NCBI GenBank assembly: GCA_947568835.1
Contig: OX387605.1
Coordinates: 20,588,418-20,652,417, forward strand
Length of the DNA stretch: 64,000 nt
From: Protonemura montana
Lineage: Eukaryota; Arthropoda; Insecta; Plecoptera; Nemouridae
Reading direction: 5' to 3'
Shown here: positions 5,034-58,831 of the stretch, piece after piece
Layout: each line of letters begins with the position of its first letter
How positions within the stretch are numbered: the first letter of the stretch is position 1
The notes under the pieces: model-generated
Seen by the model: only the letters and a program-made list of their open reading frames with translations
Database searches by the model: none
What the model was told of the DNA's origin: nothing
Program-made: the position numbers and the translations under genes

Positions 5034-5486
5034 TATTGCTGCATTGATTTGTGGTTTTTAACGACGCGCTGTTTTGACAACTGGCCCTGCGGTACTGGTC
5101 TAATGGCGTCGGTGAATGAGAGGTTGATGATGAGCCTAGCCTAGCCTAGCCTAGCCTAGAAGGGAGGAGGGGAAACCCGGTGCTGACAGGTAGCCTACTC
5201 CTGTCAAAGAGCACCAAGGGGACCGTCGGCTTAACGTCCCTTCCGAAGGACGGTAAAACTCGAGCAGCAGGATTCCTATACAAATCCATGCCGTCGAGAG
5301 GTTGATAAGCAAGGCGAATAAGTTGCTGTACTAACTTTCATCCCACGAACTTCTCTCCCGAACAGAACTGGTCATGTGTATGATGGTCACCCATCCAATA
5401 CATGACATAGCGCAGTGTTGCAAACTTCGGTGATCTCATGAGAACCAGTGTTTCCAACATGCCAAACCGTTCGGTAATAATGCTGC
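5034..5486 (-). mobile_element. 5S rRNA-derived SINE-like element, near full length
   Basis: Read on the minus strand, the element starts near 5486 with a head resembling 5S rRNA: the GGTTCT..GATCACCGAAGTT block, then GATGGGTGACC. A body follows containing GTTGATAAGC, GACGGTAAAAC-type and ACCCGGTGC blocks, then a GATGAT-rich segment and a 3' part with TTGTCAAAACAGCG. The same order of blocks occurs at 39781-40215 on the minus strand, and parts recur at 21042, 27745, 53085 and 63065, so it is a dispersed family. A 5S-derived head with an internal pol III promoter fits the SINE3 class. Whether it corresponds to a named family cannot be told here. Confidence 0.75.
5134..5159. repeat. GCCTA pentamer array (about 5 copies)
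   Basis: Five tandem GCCTA units lie inside the SINE-like element, where the copy at 39.8 kb has only one or two degenerate units. The array therefore expanded after insertion. Confidence 0.85.
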
Positions 5487-21041: not shown

Positions 21042-21205
21042 AATGCCCAGTCATCCCTTTAACCTCTCTCCCGAACAGAACTGGTCATGTGTATGAAGGT
21101 CACCCATCCATTACTTGACTCAGCGCAGTATTGCTTAACTTCGGTGATCTCTTGAGAACCTGTGTCTCCAACACGCCAAACCGTTCGGTTAAGTGTCGAA
21201 AATGC
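21042..21205 (-). mobile_element. Partial 5S-derived SINE-like element (head only)
   Basis: On the minus strand this copy begins near 21193 with the 5S-like head: GGTTCTCAAGAGATCACCG, then GAAGTTAAGCA, then GGATGGGTGACC. It stops near 21057, shortly after the head. The match to the 5S rRNA central region is the clearest among the copies. Confidence 0.75.
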
Positions 21206-28100: not shown

Positions 28101-31100
28101 TTATTGACCTACAAATTTATCTGGTAGGAAAACTATCTGAAAACTATCAAAAAAAAACTATGAATAAAGCTTTTTTGACCTTTGGAAAACTATCAACCCC
28201 ACTGCCAAATTGATCGCCATCTGCTTCTAGCGACTAGAGTAAAATAAAATTGGATAACTTACATAACGGCTAGGAATTAAACTGACTCTCAAATTAAATT
28301 ATTGTAATAGTAAAATGCCCCACAGGATGCGGGGCATCCTGTGAATTAAATTGACTTGAGATGGCGCTCTATGTAACATTATTCCTCTCAATGAAACGCT
28401 TGGAAACGCTGAAATTATGCCCGGTTTTCAAATAAATATTTGTTCATTACAATTTCCGACTTTCCTCAGGGCTCACAGCTGGACATGAAACGCGCCCTCC
28501 AGACAGCTGAACGACGGCGTGCTATGTTTTCGGACAGAAGCCAACTCAAGTACGCGCGGCGTTTGGTCGTCAAGCTCGGCAGCGCCGTCATAACACGGGA
28601 AGACGAGCACGGAATTGCGCTGGGCAGGCTGGCCTCCATAGTGGAACAGGTATGTCATTGCGCTGGGCAGGCTGGCCTCCAAAGTGGAACAGGTATGTCA
28701 TTGCGGTGGACAGGCTGGCCTCCAAAGTGGAACAGGTATGTCATTGCGGTGGGCAGGCTGGCCTCCATAGTGGAACAGGTATGTCATTACGGTGGGCAGG
28801 CTGGCCTCCAAAGTGGAACAGGTATGTCATTGCGGTGGGCAGGCTGGCCTCCATAGTGGAACAGGTATGTCATTGCGGTGGGCAGGCTGGCCTCTATAGT
28901 GGAACAGCTATGCCATTGCGGTGGGCAGGCTGGCCTCCATAGTGGAACAGGTATGTCATTGCGGTGGGCAGGCTGCCCTTATAGTGGAACAGGTATGCTA
29001 TTGCATTGGTTAGGCTATGCTCGACTAGCCATTGCATGTATATTGGTCAGGTATTGCTGGATGGTCGTGCAGGGAGTACGTAAAAAGATACCGCAAAGTT
29101 GTATATCTATTTCAAATGGCCGAAATACCAATAAAGATCGATATCTATCCGACAATTTTATATGGGGTCACCCCCCCCCCCCCCCCCCCCCAGGTAAAAT
29201 TCGTTCCATGTTTAATTGGGGTTGTGTTTGGATGCTGGGAATGAGCTTTGGGCCAGCCCACGTGGTGGTCTGCATCAAGTATTGGTGATGTTTGTTTTGT
29301 TGGAAATGACGCAAATGACGAGAGTAATTTACCGCGAGATGCTCTGGGAAATTTTGCGTTTGACACACTAGGGAGAGAATTCCAGCAATCATTCAGTCTC
29401 ATGTCTGCAGTATTAGGTATTATATTTCTATTATAGTTTTGTAAATATTTTTTTTTTCTATTTCATTTATACTTTCTGGCTGTTCATATTTTTTTTCTTA
29501 AATTGTCCTTATTTGTTCCTGGTAACCTGCGTGCTGGTTATGTTTAATTCAGGCACGATTCCTATTTTCGGAACTAGAAAATTCTATCTCATTATCACGT
29601 CACAAAATGTCTGCTGACATTTTTGTTCATATTTGCATATCGCAATTTTATTTGTAATTTTGTTTTTGTTTGGTATAATCAAAAATGTTACGATGACAAT
29701 GACGGCGAAGTCCACGCTTGAATAAGCTCTCAATCGATTCAGTGCGCAGATAGGCGACTTCTAATGTGTCCGCCAAAGTTTCCAAAAAAATCTGCTGCAG
29801 TAAAACAGAAACAAAACATGCCGTTGTGTACCCGTTTGTTGAGGGCTTGCGTTTAACTTTCTTGTTTGCAACTCTTGTGAAACGTCTGGAACGCTGAAAG
29901 ATCCATCATTGTGTAACATTGTGTAAGATAACGCGACGTTAATGGTCCAGCTATCACAACGAACGCTGTCCAAGAACTTTTGACGATCATTACGAAGCAT
30001 TCATACGCATTAAAATTGATGGTTTACGCGATCAATGCATATATCCCAATTCCGAATACATTTATTTAATGTGTAAATAAGCAAAATTTCCAATTTAAAA
30101 AATGTCACTGCTGTAAACCGTTAACTAGCAGCGTGCAAACAGCTTTAACCAACCATAAAGTTTCAGATGAAGTTTGATTAAAACACATCAATTCAATAAA
30201 ACTGGGATTCACGTCCTATACATTTTATTTTTTTAGCACCACTAGAACCAATATAAAAAAAAAATATGTTACAGAAAACAAAACCGCTGCAGCACAATTT
30301 GTGCGTGTGTGTTTCGAATTCAGTCCCTAATTTTCAACAAAGTTACAATAATTCCACCGCTTCACCATATTGTGTTGCAAGTTTCTGTCCGCTCTCTTCT
30401 CGTCACCTCCAAATAAGCCCACGGCACAATTCCTTCACGTGCGTGCGTACCCCATCTCAACATAACTCACGCTTTTGTGCTGTGTGCCAAATTACAGAGC
30501 GGTCTTTAGAAAAAAAACACATACACAATTCCGTGCTTGTTGCCCATTCACTAAACACTTTTTTGTCAGGAATGCTACATATCTTTTTTCTCCAAACTAC
30601 AACTTGAGCATAATGATGTGTAATTTCTTCGGACATGTTATCGTTTTGAGTAATATCTAGAGTTTTAGCGGTAGTTATAGAACCAAAAGTTTGAAAACCT
30701 CCAACGGCGACAGTAACTTCGTGACCCTCAGCTGCCAAGGACAGTGTTCTAGGATTGTTCTCTTGTCATACCCAGGTAGATCTGCTTTAGTCAAGCTTGG
30801 GGCATATCAATTTGTTCTTGTTGGTCTTACTGTGCTCAATATTGAATCACACATTTGTCTTAAAAGTATTTCTACTTGGCGTCTCTACAAAATAAGGGAA
30901 CATCGAATGACACTCTCTATTCGTTAAGGTGTCCGAGTGAAAGAAATTTCTCTGTAGAATGTCAGTATATTTACCAGCATTGCATTCACAGCTTAGAAGA
31001 GAGAGCGTCACAGCTTAGAGTCTAGCCGCAGTCCAAGCCGTTTTCCCTGCTCAGACTGTTTTAAACCTATTTATCATTTCTCAAGCTTGAACACAAAAGC

Positions 31101-34100
31101 TAGATCAGAAAACTGACCCCCTATTTAGAACTAAAATAATGTTTTTGAAATTCCATTTGAGTTTGCGTGTCTATTTCATTGCCAACGATTAATGAATACG
31201 ATATCTATTCTAAATTGCAGCTTTATTTCACCTTCAACTTTACTTTACCCTCAAAGATTGCTACTTTACCAAGTCAGTATTATTGAATCGTGATGAACTA
31301 GCGGATGCTGGGCACAAGTAACTTGTTACGCAACCCTTTTTAAAGGGTTTTCAAAGTTTCAGAGATTGACTTAACCTGCCCCTAGGCGCTACATGTGAGC
31401 TGTGTCTCGACTAGAAAGTATCTTATAGTTCTTAGCCATCATACGGGGCAAACAAGGGAAGCGTAGGTGTGGTTTGATTTCTGCATCGTCAATTCTCAAG
31501 TAAATCACTAATTAAATGCAGTCAAATGCAATTGCTTAAATTATAATTGTTGATTGCTTTAAATGTTAATCGTTTCACATCTAGAAATAGCGATCAGATT
31601 AACTCGACGATATATGCTTGATAGAGCCAATAACATTCCATTGACCATCATTCCCTGTGAAGTTGTGATTTGGTGAGTAATCGTGCAGAAAATTCAGTAA
31701 TGGATAATTAAAACAATTCCCGAACTCAATATATTGCTAAGCGCGACATGATTGGTGAAGTAAAACATTTTTTTTTACACTATTTTTACATGTTCCAGTA
31801 AACATTGTACTGTCACCGACTAGTCAATTGGATGCTAATATTGTTGTGCAAGCCCGTGATGTACATGGTAATCACATGGAATCAATTTATTTTGACTTCA
31901 TTTCCTGTTCCATCTACAGAAACACACCATTAATGTTCAAAAATAACCCAACATTTTTAAAACAGATACAAACCCAGAAACACTGAATGCTCTTTAATGC
32001 CTTTAAGTGTGTTGCTTGTCGATGTTCTAATACAAAATTGTTTTTTTAATATATTTTAAAATTTTCCTCTCTAACGCTTTAGTTTTCCGGTGTACGCTTG
32101 TCTGATTCTCTGACAGATTATCCTAAATTGTACGCTACGATATTTTCAGTTTGCGGTATGTTAGCTGCATACGTCAATTTAAGTTGATTCCAAGCATCCT
32201 TATTTTCCTAAAACGAATTATTTAAGATATTAACCATAGTGCAAAGTCACGCTTCAAGATGGAATTCTTAATGCAACAAATATACAACTTTTCAGGTAGC
32301 AGAGTGTCATCTCAACGGCAGAGAGTGCATCATGGTCACTAGCGGAGCCGTGGCTTTCGGCAAGCAGAAACTAACTCAAGAACTACTCATGTCACTAAGC
32401 ATGCGAGAAACTTTGTCGCCAAAAGATCACACGAGAGAGGTAAGTTAAGTTTCTCTGATTCCTAATTAAACTCGGTAATTGAATTCACTGCTAATTGAAC
32501 GGTGTGCACGTAGAAAACATCTTGTATGCGTTGAATTGCAATTTAATTATAGTTAGAGACTATATTCATAGACAGGGTGAACTTAATTTTATTTGTATAG
32601 AATCATTCATGAAAGATTTAGAAGGAGTTGGTTTAAAGTTCATAGGTAACTGATAAGACTGAGGAAGCTTCCTATCGTATGCCATGCCTTATTGCTGCAA
32701 GGCACGATCAGAAATGCAGATATGCGATTCGAAATTCATTCTGCACCTAACTTTGGCATTAAAACTTAGATTCTATCTCCAGACCGGTGTAAAACTACCC
32801 TTCCGTGTCGGGCATACGTTGTTTCAACGGTACTGAGCCAGCTAAGCATTGAATCAATCGAAACTTGAAGCCAGAGCAACATATTTTGAAAAAAATGAAT
32901 GCCAGCTCGAATTTTAGCGTTTTAAGTTTTGAAAGGCATTAACTTTGCTTGTAACAAATGATAATGGGATCTTAAAACGACGCTTGAAATCTGTGTTTGT
33001 TTGGCTATTTCTAGATATGCAAAACATTTGTGTCTTTGTCTTCAAACTTTGACCTATGCTGACAGGTTTAAGCCACTTTCAGAACAGAGGCACCCATAAA
33101 CTTACACGTGGGTTCTTTGAATCAATTCTCTTGCTCAAATATATTTGTTCGATTTTCAAAGCCCGGATTTAACCACAAGCCAAAATATACCGAAACCACC
33201 TCGTAAATAGCGCGAGATGATGCCGTTCCATCTCTCGCATATAGAGTACGAATAGTTATTATTTGTTGTTGCACTTTGCACATCAGATTCGTTAACCTCC
33301 ATGCAAAATAGAAACGGCAAGCAAAATACGACAGACAAACCTTATTGAACTACACAGCCGTCCGTACCAATGAATATTTAACGTCCAATTACGAGTTTGC
33401 AAGCGAGAGATTTATTTCAGCAGAAATAATAGATGGTCTTACTTACTATCTAGCTAGAGGAATAGGTCACTCGCCAGTTGAACATGTCTATGAACGGTAG
33501 GGTTATGTTGCTTGCCAGGCATGATTCTCGAACTCGCTGGCTCCGGTAACTCATGAACATCAAGACACCCGTTGGTACAAGATGCACGATTTTTTTCAAA
33601 CTTGTGCTATGATCCTTGCTACCAAATCTTCGTAAAACCGTCCAAAACCTTCTTTTTGGATACACTTTTAGGTATAATTTTGCTTACCGATATTTTTCAT
33701 TTGCATTCCACAAACTTCACTTAGTAAGTCAGCTGTTATTAGGTTTAAACACGAGGTTGACAAGCATCAGTTCAAATGATACGTATTATAACTATTATGA
33801 CACTTTCACGCGCACAAAACAACTGTCGGGTGGTTGCAAAACACTGCTCACGTACACACGCATGTTTCACTACTAACAAAAGCAACATATGACAAAGATT
33901 TGAGGGAAAAGTGAACTGCCAAACTAGCGCACAGTATGTCTGGTAGCGGAGTGTGGAGCGGCCAAGGTCGAACAGCTGACTCCTCTGCAATTCCTACTCC
34001 ATTAGCCAGGTAACGACAAATGAAATGGGTTTCCGTTAATGACTTCTGTCCCACGAAAGTACTTGGTGCTATCAGATGACATGCCATAAACAGTCTTTAT

Positions 34101-37100: not shown

Positions 37101-40100
37101 TGACGCCGTTTCGCCGCCTCCACAAGCAGACGAGGAGTCTGAAGGCGTGAGATCAAAGAAGGTAAGAGTTAACAAAAAAAAAATGACTAGTGCCTTTTAA
37201 AATAGGCACACTCGTCACACTGTATTGTAGTAAAAATGCGAAATAAATAATTAGAATATGTTCTCAACGTCAATGAAAAGGCAACTTAAAAAAAAAACGA
37301 GAGTAGATGTTAGGAGAAAGACGCTTTTTGAATGAATGATGAGTGTCTGACGTGTTTTACGAATCTATATTCCTATTCAAAGACTCAATTCCATGCGTGG
37401 CTTAAGAAAGAAGCTTCCAATATGGAAAATCGGGTGCTTGGTTTGTCTCTTTGCTTACCACGCCTTTGTCACTTCCGGTAACCATCACTTTCTATGGTGT
37501 TTTTTAGTAGGATAGTCATTTTGCAACAATATGACGCGAATTTATAGGTTTTAGTGCATTTTTTCATAACAAAATGGTGTTTAAGAAAATTGCAGACTTT
37601 TTGAAAGACCGTACATTAAATTCAGGGTCGCCGATTCTAAATTCAAACAATGTTTAATTTCGATTGAAACGAGTATTTTTGGGACAAACCATCATCCATA
37701 TTGTTCTTAGAAAGTATTTTTAAATTGCTCTCGCGGCTTGCAGGTAATCTCCATCAAAGATAACGACAGCCTTGCTGCAATGTTGGCCGCTGAGATTCAG
37801 GCTGACCTGCTTATACTGATGTCGGACGTTGATGGCATCTACACGGCGCCACCCTGGCAGGAAGGGTCCAGGCTGCTCAGGACCTACACCTCTGATATGA
37901 CGGATACAGTGCAGTTTGGCAAGAAGAGCAAAGTGGGGACTGGCGGCATGGACTCAAAGGTATAAAAATTTGCCGAATAGCGATGTCGGGTTTACATGTT
38001 TTTTTTCAAAGTTCCAGCAATTTTGTAAAACGTTTTTTTCTGCTAAGCAAACGAGCTGGTAGCACGTTGTAACGGTATGGTGCCACTCGATGGCGCCTGC
38101 AACCGTTCTTTTTCTAGCAGAACCTCTGTAACGAAATAATTACGAATCAAAATATCGAATCGTTGAGGTTATGGACACTTATATAATCTTCATTGAGCTT
38201 AATCCAGTTTTAACGGTGGACTATCGGCTGGAAAATCAAAATTAAATTTCTTAGTTCGCAATATGAAGGCGACGCTTTTTTTTGCATCAAGATTTTTCGT
38301 TGGTATAGGTTAGTAGTTGATCGGTGGGTATGTTTTGCAAAAAAGACAGCTTAACCACAGGTTTAATCGTGCAATTTATTAACTCTGGGTCTCTGACTAA
38401 ACCTATAAACCCAATTAGATGAATATCTTCATTGAGTGATTTTTCAGATAATGCGATAGTTCTCTTTAATTTTAAGTCAGTAAGATTTTGTTGTTTCTTT
38501 GAATATATATCCAACGTCTCTAAAATCGAGTCTTGATTTGCTATGATTTATATAATTATTCAGTTAGCAATTTGAATGGTTAACTAGGAATAAGGTAGAT
38601 GAGTTTTGCCCTCTCTATGAGCGCGGGGAAATATTTTGTATGAATTTAGCTTAGTATGCTATCAGTGCATAATGCCTTACAAAAACAGCGCTAAAATTTG
38701 TCTGTCGCATAATCTTAAGATCTCATTAAAAAAAAGCATGTTTATGAATATTTCTTTTTCAATATGTTTCTTCGATAAATGATAAAATTGAATATGGTAA
38801 CAAACATCAGAAAAGCGCACTCGCTTTTCCTGTCAACGAATAGTTATGAGAACAGAAAATGATTTCCCATCTTCTTTTTGGTATCATGCCATGAATGTGA
38901 ACTGATTGTCGTAGCTACGTTTCATGTTCCAAACCTTATCAGCCAAAATTAAGATTGTCTTCAATTTTAGATCGTTCAGGTAATTGAGACTATATTGTGT
39001 TTTGCTTTACTTTTGGTGCTCAGGGGTGCATCTGGTAACAGCACGACGAGAAAACTCGCATTCGAAATAAAGTTTGTTGGATTTTCCTTATGTGGATAAA
39101 GTCAAGTTTGAAACTTCCCGATAGATAATTTATAAAATGTTGACAATACAGCATTGGGATTAGAGGTTAATTCAGAGTCTCAGCGCTGATTTTAAACTGT
39201 CTTCGCGAAAATAGCCGACCGATAACTTTGAAACCGACCAAAATTGTGGTCGCCCAGAGATGGAGTCACTGTCGTTTCGAGTGACAAGAAATTTAATTTC
39301 GTTAATTCTTGCAAATTACCCACATTTGAGACTGGTTTACGCTCAATTAATCTTTACTCATACTTACCTCATCGATTGATTTACATAAATCGATATTTTG
39401 AGTCGAAATTTTTTAATTGCAGAGATTTGTTTTAAAGGATATCGCAGGCGCCATCAGGTGGATACAACCGAAACCACGTGTTTGGAGTGTATCAAACGTT
39501 TAACATAAGCGCTGTTACTCTGACCTTAACTATAAAACCAATGGTTGAAGCATCGCATGCAAGGCGAATACTCTTTGGAGTGAATGTAGATCACACTGAA
39601 CGGTTCGGCTCACAGGTCGCTTCGATTTATCTGAGCCTAGTTTCCGTTGAAATTATTCAACTCATTAGCTACGTTAATTTCCGCTCAGAAATGTCATGGC
39701 CGTTTAGCTCAGCGGTCGGGTCGCGATTGCCAACGCAGACACTCGAGCTCGACTCAACTCTAGTGGATAGATTGATTGATTTGTGGTGATTAACAAAGCG
39801 CTGTTTTGACAACTGGCCCTGCAGCACTAGTCTTATGGCGTCGGTAAATGAAGGGATGATGATGAGGATGATGATGAACCTAGCATAGCTTAGAAAGGAG
39901 GAGGGGAAACCCGGTGCCGGCACGTAGGCTACTCCTGTCGAAGACCCAAGGGACCACCCAGGGGACCACCGGCTTAACGTCCCTTCCGAAGGACGGTACA
40001 ACTCGAACAGCAGGATTCCTCCACAAATCCATGCTGTCGAGAGGTTGATAAGCGAGGCGAATAAAGTCGCTGTACTAACTTTCATCTCTCCAGCCTCTCT

Positions 40101-57204: not shown

Positions 57205-58831
57205 GTGAGTAACCAACTTTGTAATTATGCCATTTCAATTGCCAATCAATAAGGTTCGGTTTTACCAAAACCTCGTCTCCTAGTTGAAGTGTTAATAATG
57301 AAACTATTGCCATGACGACTTCCAATCACATACAGTGAAATTCAGATGTTTCTATGAGTTAGAGGTCCAACTTATATTTGAACATTTTGGTAAAACCTGC
57401 CCTGGGGGGTTGGAAAATTCAGCTCTAAACGAGCTCTAAACAAAAATGTAATTATTTGAAGAAGGAGGTCAACTTGAAGCATCCCCTTATTTTGAAACCT
57501 GATTTTGACGGCGAGAGGTTAAGCTCAACACCTGTTAAGGGCAGCAAAATCCAGCTCTAAACGAGCTCTAAGCGAGCTCAAAAAAGCGTCATGATATCGA
57601 AAGTGACCAACAATTCGACGATTGCCCTATGTCCCGAAATCTACATATGTCCCGCAATGTATGTCCCGAAACCTACTTATGTCCCGCAATATATGTCCCG
57701 CAATCTACTTATGTCCCGCAATCTGGAAATAATCATACTCTCTCCGACTTTTAGATTTGGCGCTTCTCTTCGGGGTGCTGGGGAGTTGTCCCGAATTTTG
57801 TCCCCAATACGTGTTACGGTTTTGTGCAAAGGATTCGGCCGGGAACAAGATGGCGTTCAACAACGAGTGCGAGATGCGACGTTACAATTGCAATGAGGGC
57901 TCTGGTCAGTCTTGTCGGCAACAGAAAGATGTTTTATCAAGATGATTTTTGGAAACTCAAGGTCAACTCAAAAACTCGAGGTCAACAAAAAAACTTCTAG
58001 CCTTGATGTGACCAATAAGAGTACAGAATGTTCCTGCGAAAATTAAAGCACTAAGCATAAATACATTTTAGCATAAATTAAGCATCAAATTTAATTTCGA
58101 GCATAAATAAGATAAAACCGACAAAACAAATCGAAGGCCTAACCCACCTTGAGAGGAGTCTTTAAGAAAGAGCAAGCTGGCCGTTCACGTCCATCAAGCA
58201 AGCACCATTTGGTATAATTTGTGTAACCCACGAGTGACAGATTTTCTTTTGAACTTTCTCCTGTAATCCCATGCACAAAAATGATTATAAACGCTTTGAC
58301 AAAACTTTTTAAACCATAACTTTCCAATAATTAATCATTGATCGAGTCTACAAGAAGCACACCAAAGGATAAGTTAAAGTTTGCCAGCTTACCCATCCCC
58401 AGCTTCTTGCTTTCCCTTGAATCATTCCCACCTCACCTCTCACCTTACGTCCTTCAAATAGTTAAATCGTCCATCTTCTCTCTCTATTTCTCTCTCTGTA
58501 TATTCTAGATTCGTATTAAGATTCGTATCACTTGCTATTGAAATGTCCATTATCCACACGTGTATGTAAAAGATTAATCAATTGCCTGTCCTATCACGAT
58601 GACGTTAGCACCCGTTCCGTGTGTTTCGCTGTTAGTCTGGGATCAAAATACGATGTTCTTTTCTCGTATTTTCTGCTGGCATGCTTCTTCTAGATCTTCC
58701 TTCAATTTAATTTCACAATGCCAAAGATCTTTTGTCTCGCCTGTGAAATAACTCTGATAATTTAATGTTCCATTTCAGACTTCGCTTTCGACATGAAAGG
58801 AGCGTGCAGTGAAACGCACCCAAAAGCTTGA
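57177..58831 (+). CDS. Kazal-domain secreted protein 1 (Vasotab-like), 3 exons
   Basis: Exons 57177-57204, 57755-57904 and 58779-58831 join in frame (both introns phase 1) to 76 residues. Residues 1-20 are a hydrophobic signal peptide (MKFTAFVIIDLALLFGVLGS). The mature part has exactly six cysteines (21, 25, 33, 48, 55, 69) spaced C-x3-C-x7-C-x14-C-x6-C-x13-C, with AFNNEC matching the Kazal YxNxC region. Kazal domains inhibit serine proteases, but short arthropod members such as horse-fly Vasotab act on other targets. The inhibitory P1 region here (CPQYVLRFC) lacks the usual P-V-C. AATAAA lies 12 bases after the stop (58844-58849). The second donor is GTCAGT, weaker than the rest. Function beyond the fold is inferred. 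Confidence 0.85.
57421..57575. repeat. Dispersed AGCTCTAAACG repeat
   Basis: AGCTCTAAACGAGCTCTAA occurs at 57421 and again at 57553, inside Kazal gene 1 intron 1. A further partial unit follows the second. Confidence 0.75.
57629..57726 (+). repeat. ATGTCCCG higher-order tandem repeat
   Basis: ATGTCCCG starts at 57629, 57647, 57661, 57679, 57693 and 57711. The spacing alternates 18, 14, 18, 14, 18, giving a 32-bp unit repeated three times. It ends 28 bp before exon 2 of Kazal gene 1. Confidence 0.9.
57755..57904 (+). CDS. Kazal gene 1 exon 2 (domain core)
   Basis: Acceptor GACTTTTAG, then LALLFGVLGSCPEFCPQY through YNCNEGS. Five of six Kazal cysteines are here. Donor TCTG|GTCAGT. Confidence 0.82.
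58779..58831 (+). CDS. Kazal gene 1 exon 3 and stop
   Basis: Acceptor CATTTCAG, then (D)FAFDMKGACSETHPKA and TGA. Supplies the last cysteine, as the final exon does in gene 2. Confidence 0.8.

Follow-up and report, generated by a model that had tools for sequence, protein, structure and literature searches.

The P5CS exon 2 donor lies in a tandem array

How is an exon spliced when its end, donor included, stands nine times in a row, and do the extra donors serve the gene? A sequence-only reading of the window (the whole 64,000-nt stretch of DNA analysed here, on contig C3) had described a ninefold 43-bp repeat made of the end of P5CS coding exon 2 and the first 7 bases of intron 2, and had suggested that copy number could tune how much functional P5CS is made. 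Both the gene and the register of its donors proved right (tblastn and unit alignment). Residues 46-787 of Anabrus P5CS (ALDH18A1) aligned across 28482-48588 in tblastn; the exons for both enzyme parts, glutamate kinase and aldehyde dehydrogenase, were open and followed the right order, and the kinase part matched PDB 7f5t (P5CS) with an E value of 2.4e-150. In a tree of 47 P5CS proteins (that of the window and 46 of the 120 homologues listed), the window protein fell among the insects, with a branching order that the tree left open. Exons 2 and 3, which flank intron 2, join in frame as SIVEQ|VAECH.

28470-28649, + strand: P5CS coding exon 2, 180 nt, ending in phase 0, with array copy 1 as the last 36 nt (tblastn with insect P5CS, and sequence)
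28614-28999, + strand: nine-copy array; the 43-bp unit joins 36 nt of exon end to 7 nt of intron start (TRF and unit alignment)
32296-32439, + strand: P5CS exon 3, 144 nt, 48 codons, phase 0 (tblastn and sequence)

TRF and unit alignment bore out the ninefold repeat. TRF placed it at 28614-29004 with a period of 43, 9.1 copies, 94% matches and a score of 677, the top of 16 rows for the window. Array copies 1-8, each of 43 nt, differed from the consensus at 1, 2, 2, 0, 2, 0, 3 and 0 positions, respectively; copy 9 had one base deleted (42 nt), which placed its donor at 28993, one base earlier than an even spacing of 43 bp would have it. CAG|GT was kept in eight of the nine copies. The claim of up to eight intact CAG|GTATGT donors thus stood for CAG|GT; only seven copies carried the exact sequence, and copy 9 read CAG|GTATGC. 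All seven CAGGTATGT 9-mers on the + strand of the window lay inside the array, and a DNA search with window positions 28560-29050 found one matching place in the genome (258,480,905 bp on 34 contigs). As background, none of 19 stretches of 10 kb held a unit of at least 20 bp in more than 2.1 copies at a TRF score of at least 100. Nine copies of 42-43 nt with 94% matches are beyond chance, the number nine being that in the assembly. We consider it very improbable that one real unit was multiplied in assembly, because the copies differ from one another, copy 9 has a deletion of its own, and a like anatomy occurs at other loci with different sequences.

Reading frames predict use of the first donor

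A script that joined every donor to exon 3 gave the following consequences for the reading frame.

28650-28651, + strand: donor 1 (GT), gives normal P5CS (frame check)
28693-28694, + strand: donor 2 copy, +43 nt, frameshift; stop after the join to exon 3
28736-28737, + strand: donor 3 copy, +86 nt, stop at the exon 3 junction
28779-28780, + strand: donor 4 copy, +129 nt, frame kept, predicted product longer by 43 aa
28822-28823, + strand: donor 5 copy, +172 nt, frameshift; stop after the join to exon 3
28854-28856, + strand: in-frame stop in copy 6, where products from donors 6 to 9 terminate
28865-28866, + strand: donor 6 copy, +215 nt, stop reached within the array
28908-28909, + strand: copy 7 position, CT for GT, donor lost
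28951-28952, + strand: donor 8 copy, +301 nt, stop reached within the array
28993-28994, + strand: donor 9 copy (GTATGC), +343 nt, stop reached within the array

The frame analysis of the sequence-only reading was correct throughout: donor 4 inserts 43 open codons that end again in GRLASIVEQ, donors 2, 3 and 5 run into stops, donor seven has CT at 28908 in place of its GT, and the stop said to precede donor seven is that at 28854-28856 in copy 6.

Judging from these frames, the spliceosome would join the most upstream donor (28650) to 32296. If that donor is used, intron 2 simply begins with the extra copies, any leaky splicing from downstream donors would yield mostly stop-containing RNAs, and selection would see little of the array because donor 1 keeps working. 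Our preferred reading, at a probability of roughly 0.7, is that the P5CS array is a near-neutral exon-end minisatellite of the type called "mirage" in amphioxus, probably seeded by microhomology and tolerated through use of the most upstream donor. A point against it is that, of two donors equal in strength, splicing can favour the one closer to the acceptor.

The live donors hardly differed in predicted U1 pairing, with seven at -7.8 kcal/mol and one (donor 9) at -7.2 kcal/mol. They are not strong: eight of the ten other P5CS donors scored, a set that omits the exon 1 donor and includes both alternatives of one exon, had better predicted pairing. An RNA structure sequestering the donors was rejected as a candidate (z -1.49, with 8 of 100 shuffles as good).

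That eight donors are live, with much the same predicted pairing, and that one of them (donor 4) is open and in frame speaks for the downstream donors being put to use, with copy number setting the share of frameshifted RNA and donor 4 making a P5CS longer by 43 aa. For a different exon of Anabrus P5CS, moreover, two database isoforms fit a choice between alternative donors, which the window has too. Against such use, the 43-aa insert had no match in the protein collection searched, and the exon 2/3 junction was without insertion in 109 of the 120 P5CS homologues listed, from a search in which 7,206 of 7,995 scored candidates passed. The other 11 did not fit the search expression; five of them were Timema models, and four of these five resumed at VAEC, the start of exon 3. 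We regard useful splicing from the downstream donors as unlikely, a judgement to which other arrays in the same genome contributed.

Donor arrays at other exon ends

We scanned the genome for places where an exact donor word stands three times, separated by gaps of 20-50 bases, using four words whose matches were listed in full. CAGGTATGTV gave 66 matches (3 for the reversed-word control) in three arrays: that of P5CS, a 46-bp satellite and a 10-bp simple repeat. The 46-bp CAGGTATGT satellite, on C1, was rejected as an exonic array, since inspection of its upstream flank by eye revealed no exon. AGGTAAGT gave 25 matches (control 11) and likewise three arrays. In DNA ligase 3, eight copies of 41 bp, with donor 1 at C3:213713, adjoined an exon matching Pfam PF04675 (E 1.2e-7) and PDB 3l2p (E 3.1e-13); in RFX, 15 copies of 43 bp, with donor 1 at C2:466880, adjoined an exon matching PF25340 (E 1.1e-21); and the third array, on C16, had no clear exon in its flank.

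AGGTGAGT gave 80 matches (control 54), which comprised seven single-locus arrays and a dispersed 36-bp family. Leaving the family aside, we read one flank for each of the seven arrays, and six adjoined an exon end. The exon next to the UBR5 array matched PDB 8p82 (E 2.3e-17), and that next to a synaptotagmin-like array matched PF00168 (E 4.9e-11) and PDB 2r83 (E 3.6e-19). A JHBP-like array had a weaker match (PF06585, E 7e-6, 25.8 bits, under the cut-off of 29.2). At C2:28530139, C5:17317685 and C13:2911826, exon ends were recognized by open frame alone (AG to donor), and Pfam returned nothing or a weak unrelated match for these exons. The seventh array (C1:961472; locus C1:960800-961700, L022), with a 49-bp unit, adjoined a putative exon on the opposite strand and may be an acceptor-side counterpart. 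AGGTAAGA gave six matches, below its control (22), and these were two simple repeats by their look.

Counting P5CS and setting the dispersed family aside, nine of 15 arrays stood at exon ends, six of them with exon homology (P5CS, RFX, DNA ligase 3, UBR5, synaptotagmin-like and, with the weaker match, JHBP-like). A looser donor pattern gave 826 matches compared with 139 for its control and, among the matches listed, all were on C1. We make no claim of exon-end enrichment, because the reversed AGGTGAGT and AGGTAAGA words were about as frequent as the words themselves or more so. What is new here is the nine exon-end donor arrays found by genome-wide pattern scans in one insect genome; the unexpected part is the number that a quick scan turned up.

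These arrays bear on how the P5CS donors should be read. The RFX intron is 662 nt long and consists of a 645-nt array (15 donor-unit copies) plus 17 nt; when the RFX exons were joined, the frame was open from donor 1 only, and donors 2-15 all met stops. In DNA ligase 3, for which the array-side exon alone was read, donor 2 shifts the frame and donors 3 to 8 lie behind a stop. In both genes, then, the in-frame downstream donors are behind stops, which counts against useful splicing from the downstream P5CS donors; the open donor-4 insert of P5CS may well be chance. Unit length was not a multiple of 3 in eight of the nine arrays, compared with six of nine expected if frame is irrelevant, so frame-preserving units are not favoured. 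The number of exonic bases per unit varied widely, between about 4 (one array) and 36 (P5CS), counts that are unreliable for the UBR5, synaptotagmin-like and C5 arrays. Taken together, the exon-end arrays have the look of tolerated repeats that came to lie over a junction, and not of a switch made for a purpose. The idea of tuning, as put forward by the sequence-only reading, is weak, and the comparison counts against both copy-number tuning and a donor-4 isoform.

Comparison with known boundary repeats

The P5CS array is real in the assembly and of a kind already known from amphioxus mirages and the ABCA7 VNTR. The earlier description of such an array as unusual therefore has to be qualified: boundary duplications are on record in amphioxus (PMC3087553) and in human ABCA7 (PMC5954066), and eight further exon-end arrays were found here. 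Amphioxus mirages are minisatellite-like duplications of exon-intron boundaries for which both length changes and undisturbed regular splicing have been reported; they occur in Adh3 and the globin genes BflGb6 and BflGb9, and are also reported for TnC and PGBD5 (PMC3087553, PMC3902484). As in these mirages, the near-identical P5CS units straddle the exon-intron boundary in tandem (36 exonic and 7 intronic nt), and the splice signals repeat along with them (CAG|GT, eight of nine copies). The units of amphioxus Adh3 are 10-72 bp long and bracket the 43 bp of P5CS. The amphioxus cases differ in belonging to lancelets, in the globin units of 150-160 bp and in the duplication of an acceptor boundary in BflGb6. 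Length instability is reported for the amphioxus mirages, whereas the P5CS array is known from one assembly.

In human ABCA7, the VNTR of intron 18 has a 25-bp unit and takes in the donor of exon 18 (PMC5954066). Like that VNTR, the P5CS array has a short unit that contains the exon's donor, adjoins the exon end and is not a multiple of 3 in length. The ABCA7 repeat, of about 12 to 427 units, stands directly at the exon end, and its unit starts at the donor GT, whereas that of P5CS carries 36 exon bases. Population, RNA and disease data exist for ABCA7, whereas the P5CS array is known as sequence. Retention of one ABCA7 unit was reported at 2 +/- 1%, unaffected by array length, while skipping of exon 19 rises with length (PMC5954066). 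The independence of retention from length is a further point against copy number setting the share of frameshifted P5CS RNA.

The ABCA7 results suggest another way in which the array could act, namely at a distance, with U1-binding or other factor sites in a row changing the skipping of the next exon or expression. In ABCA7, exon 19 skipping goes up and expression goes down with VNTR length (PMC5954066). Skipping of P5CS exon 3 (144 nt) would likewise keep the frame, at the loss of 48 residues including TSGAVAFG. The P5CS array, however, has 386 bp, near the bottom of the ABCA7 allele range (298-10,678 bp; PMC5954066), and we think such action improbable, about as much so as useful splicing from the downstream donors.

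Every live P5CS unit ends in AACAG|GTATG, so that its AG|GT could in principle be both acceptor and donor, as intron gain or stepwise (recursive) splicing would have it. Pyrimidines make up just 8-9 of the 20 positions before the unit AGs, which makes these weak acceptors, and an intron of one 43-nt unit would be unusually short. For these reasons, we regard this possibility as very remote. Tandem duplication of AGGT segments is a proposed route to new introns (PMC4974935), and it resembles the P5CS case in that duplication yields extra AG|GT; the P5CS unit, by contrast, has no clear acceptor-like pyrimidine tract. A related case comes from human segmental-duplication genes, in which variable internal tandem repeats at exon-intron boundaries change the structure of the gene (PMC2812944). 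Those repeats are, like that of P5CS, minisatellites at exon-intron boundaries; they belong to recent primate duplicates and form new introns there, while P5CS has no sign of an extra intron.

Origin and turnover of the arrays

Under the preferred reading of a tolerated minisatellite, the array would probably have begun from a short similarity between exon and intron. One stretch just after copy 9 resembles the start of the unit.

29000-29020, + strand: stretch resembling the unit start, in the next register; 14 of 21 positions match, beginning with ATTGC

Only five of the 63,470 other 21-mers in the window matched the unit start as well, and the stretch is probably either the seed homology or a decayed partial copy 10. 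A longer decayed tail made of copies 10-11 was rejected, since its gapped alignment was not significant (44 and 62 of 500 shuffles were as good). Within the array, copies 1 and 2 have the coding C at unit position 7 in common, and copy 2 also has A at position 26, as do copies 3 and 5. The pattern of copy 2 fits a chimera or an exchange between the exon copy and the array, and such patchwork copies hint at instability of copy number.

We infer that the seed was a short exon-intron similarity (ATTGC, then TGG and AGGCT in register) that would have led to a tandem duplication, after which units could have been added by slippage or unequal exchange. Such a microhomology-seeded tandem duplication would go along with continuing turnover. 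At the RFX array, a 10-bp word, GACTGAAGGT, is present at either end. The synaptotagmin-like array has eight donors reading GTGAGT and a ninth reading GTAAGT, and AGTTGC occurs in its exon and again after its last donor; from these two occurrences, the original donor would be the last copy and the first a donor/exon hybrid.

Implications

To our knowledge, most studies of how identical 5' splice sites compete have used constructs. The loci described here provide natural examples: conserved genes that have 8 to 15 near-identical donors in a row and reading frames that predict use of the first donor. If RNA confirms this, they would allow tests of donor choice, of the tolerance that enables repeats to spread and of intron growth from exon-end repeats. 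The arrays are also likely sites of copy-number variation and would be poorly handled by short reads. A broader, tentative idea, which we are more inclined to doubt than to accept, is that a genome-wide wave of donor-anchored minisatellites has multiplied exon ends in many conserved genes, with introns growing from near-minimal size by copying their own donor, as RFX might have done, and with harm avoided by a strict rule that the most upstream of identical donors wins. If there was such a wave, its loci would be natural experiments in how the spliceosome chooses among up to 15 identical donors.

Additional observations

A second P5CS exon has two possible donors 15 nt apart, at 37147 (GGC|GTGAGA) and 37162 (AAG|GTAAGA), and the choice between them would add VRSKK in frame. 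At the equivalent place, VGSKK sets the Anabrus P5CS isoforms X4 and X3 apart, and we take this to be also the position of the alternative donor that adds two residues (VN) in human P5CS. In intron 2 of P5CS, at 29171-29194, 21 C are followed directly by AG|GTAAAA, with pyrimidines at all 20 positions before CAG; this resembles a site that is acceptor and donor in one (recursive-splice-like), or it could be chance.

Other repeats were found beside the donor arrays and in the window. The RFX intron contains, before its donor array, a second minisatellite of 42 bp in at least 18.5 copies (L024/L029, C2:467224-468000), and the intron of DNA ligase 3 has an unrelated one, with a 36-bp unit in at least 10.9 copies, directly behind its donor array (L027, C3:214007-214400). 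A smaller minisatellite, of three 32-bp copies, lies at 57628-57722 of the window. Two degenerate 5S-rRNA-like elements (Rfam RF00001, 49.2 and 44.7 bits) occupy window positions 21069-21189 and 5356-5475, both on the - strand. A 91-bp tandem repeat, which by eye is in part 5S rRNA-like, was present in 14.8 copies at L023 656-2001 and in 2.1 copies at L004 583-770; a 5S-derived repeat may thus form satellites in this genome.
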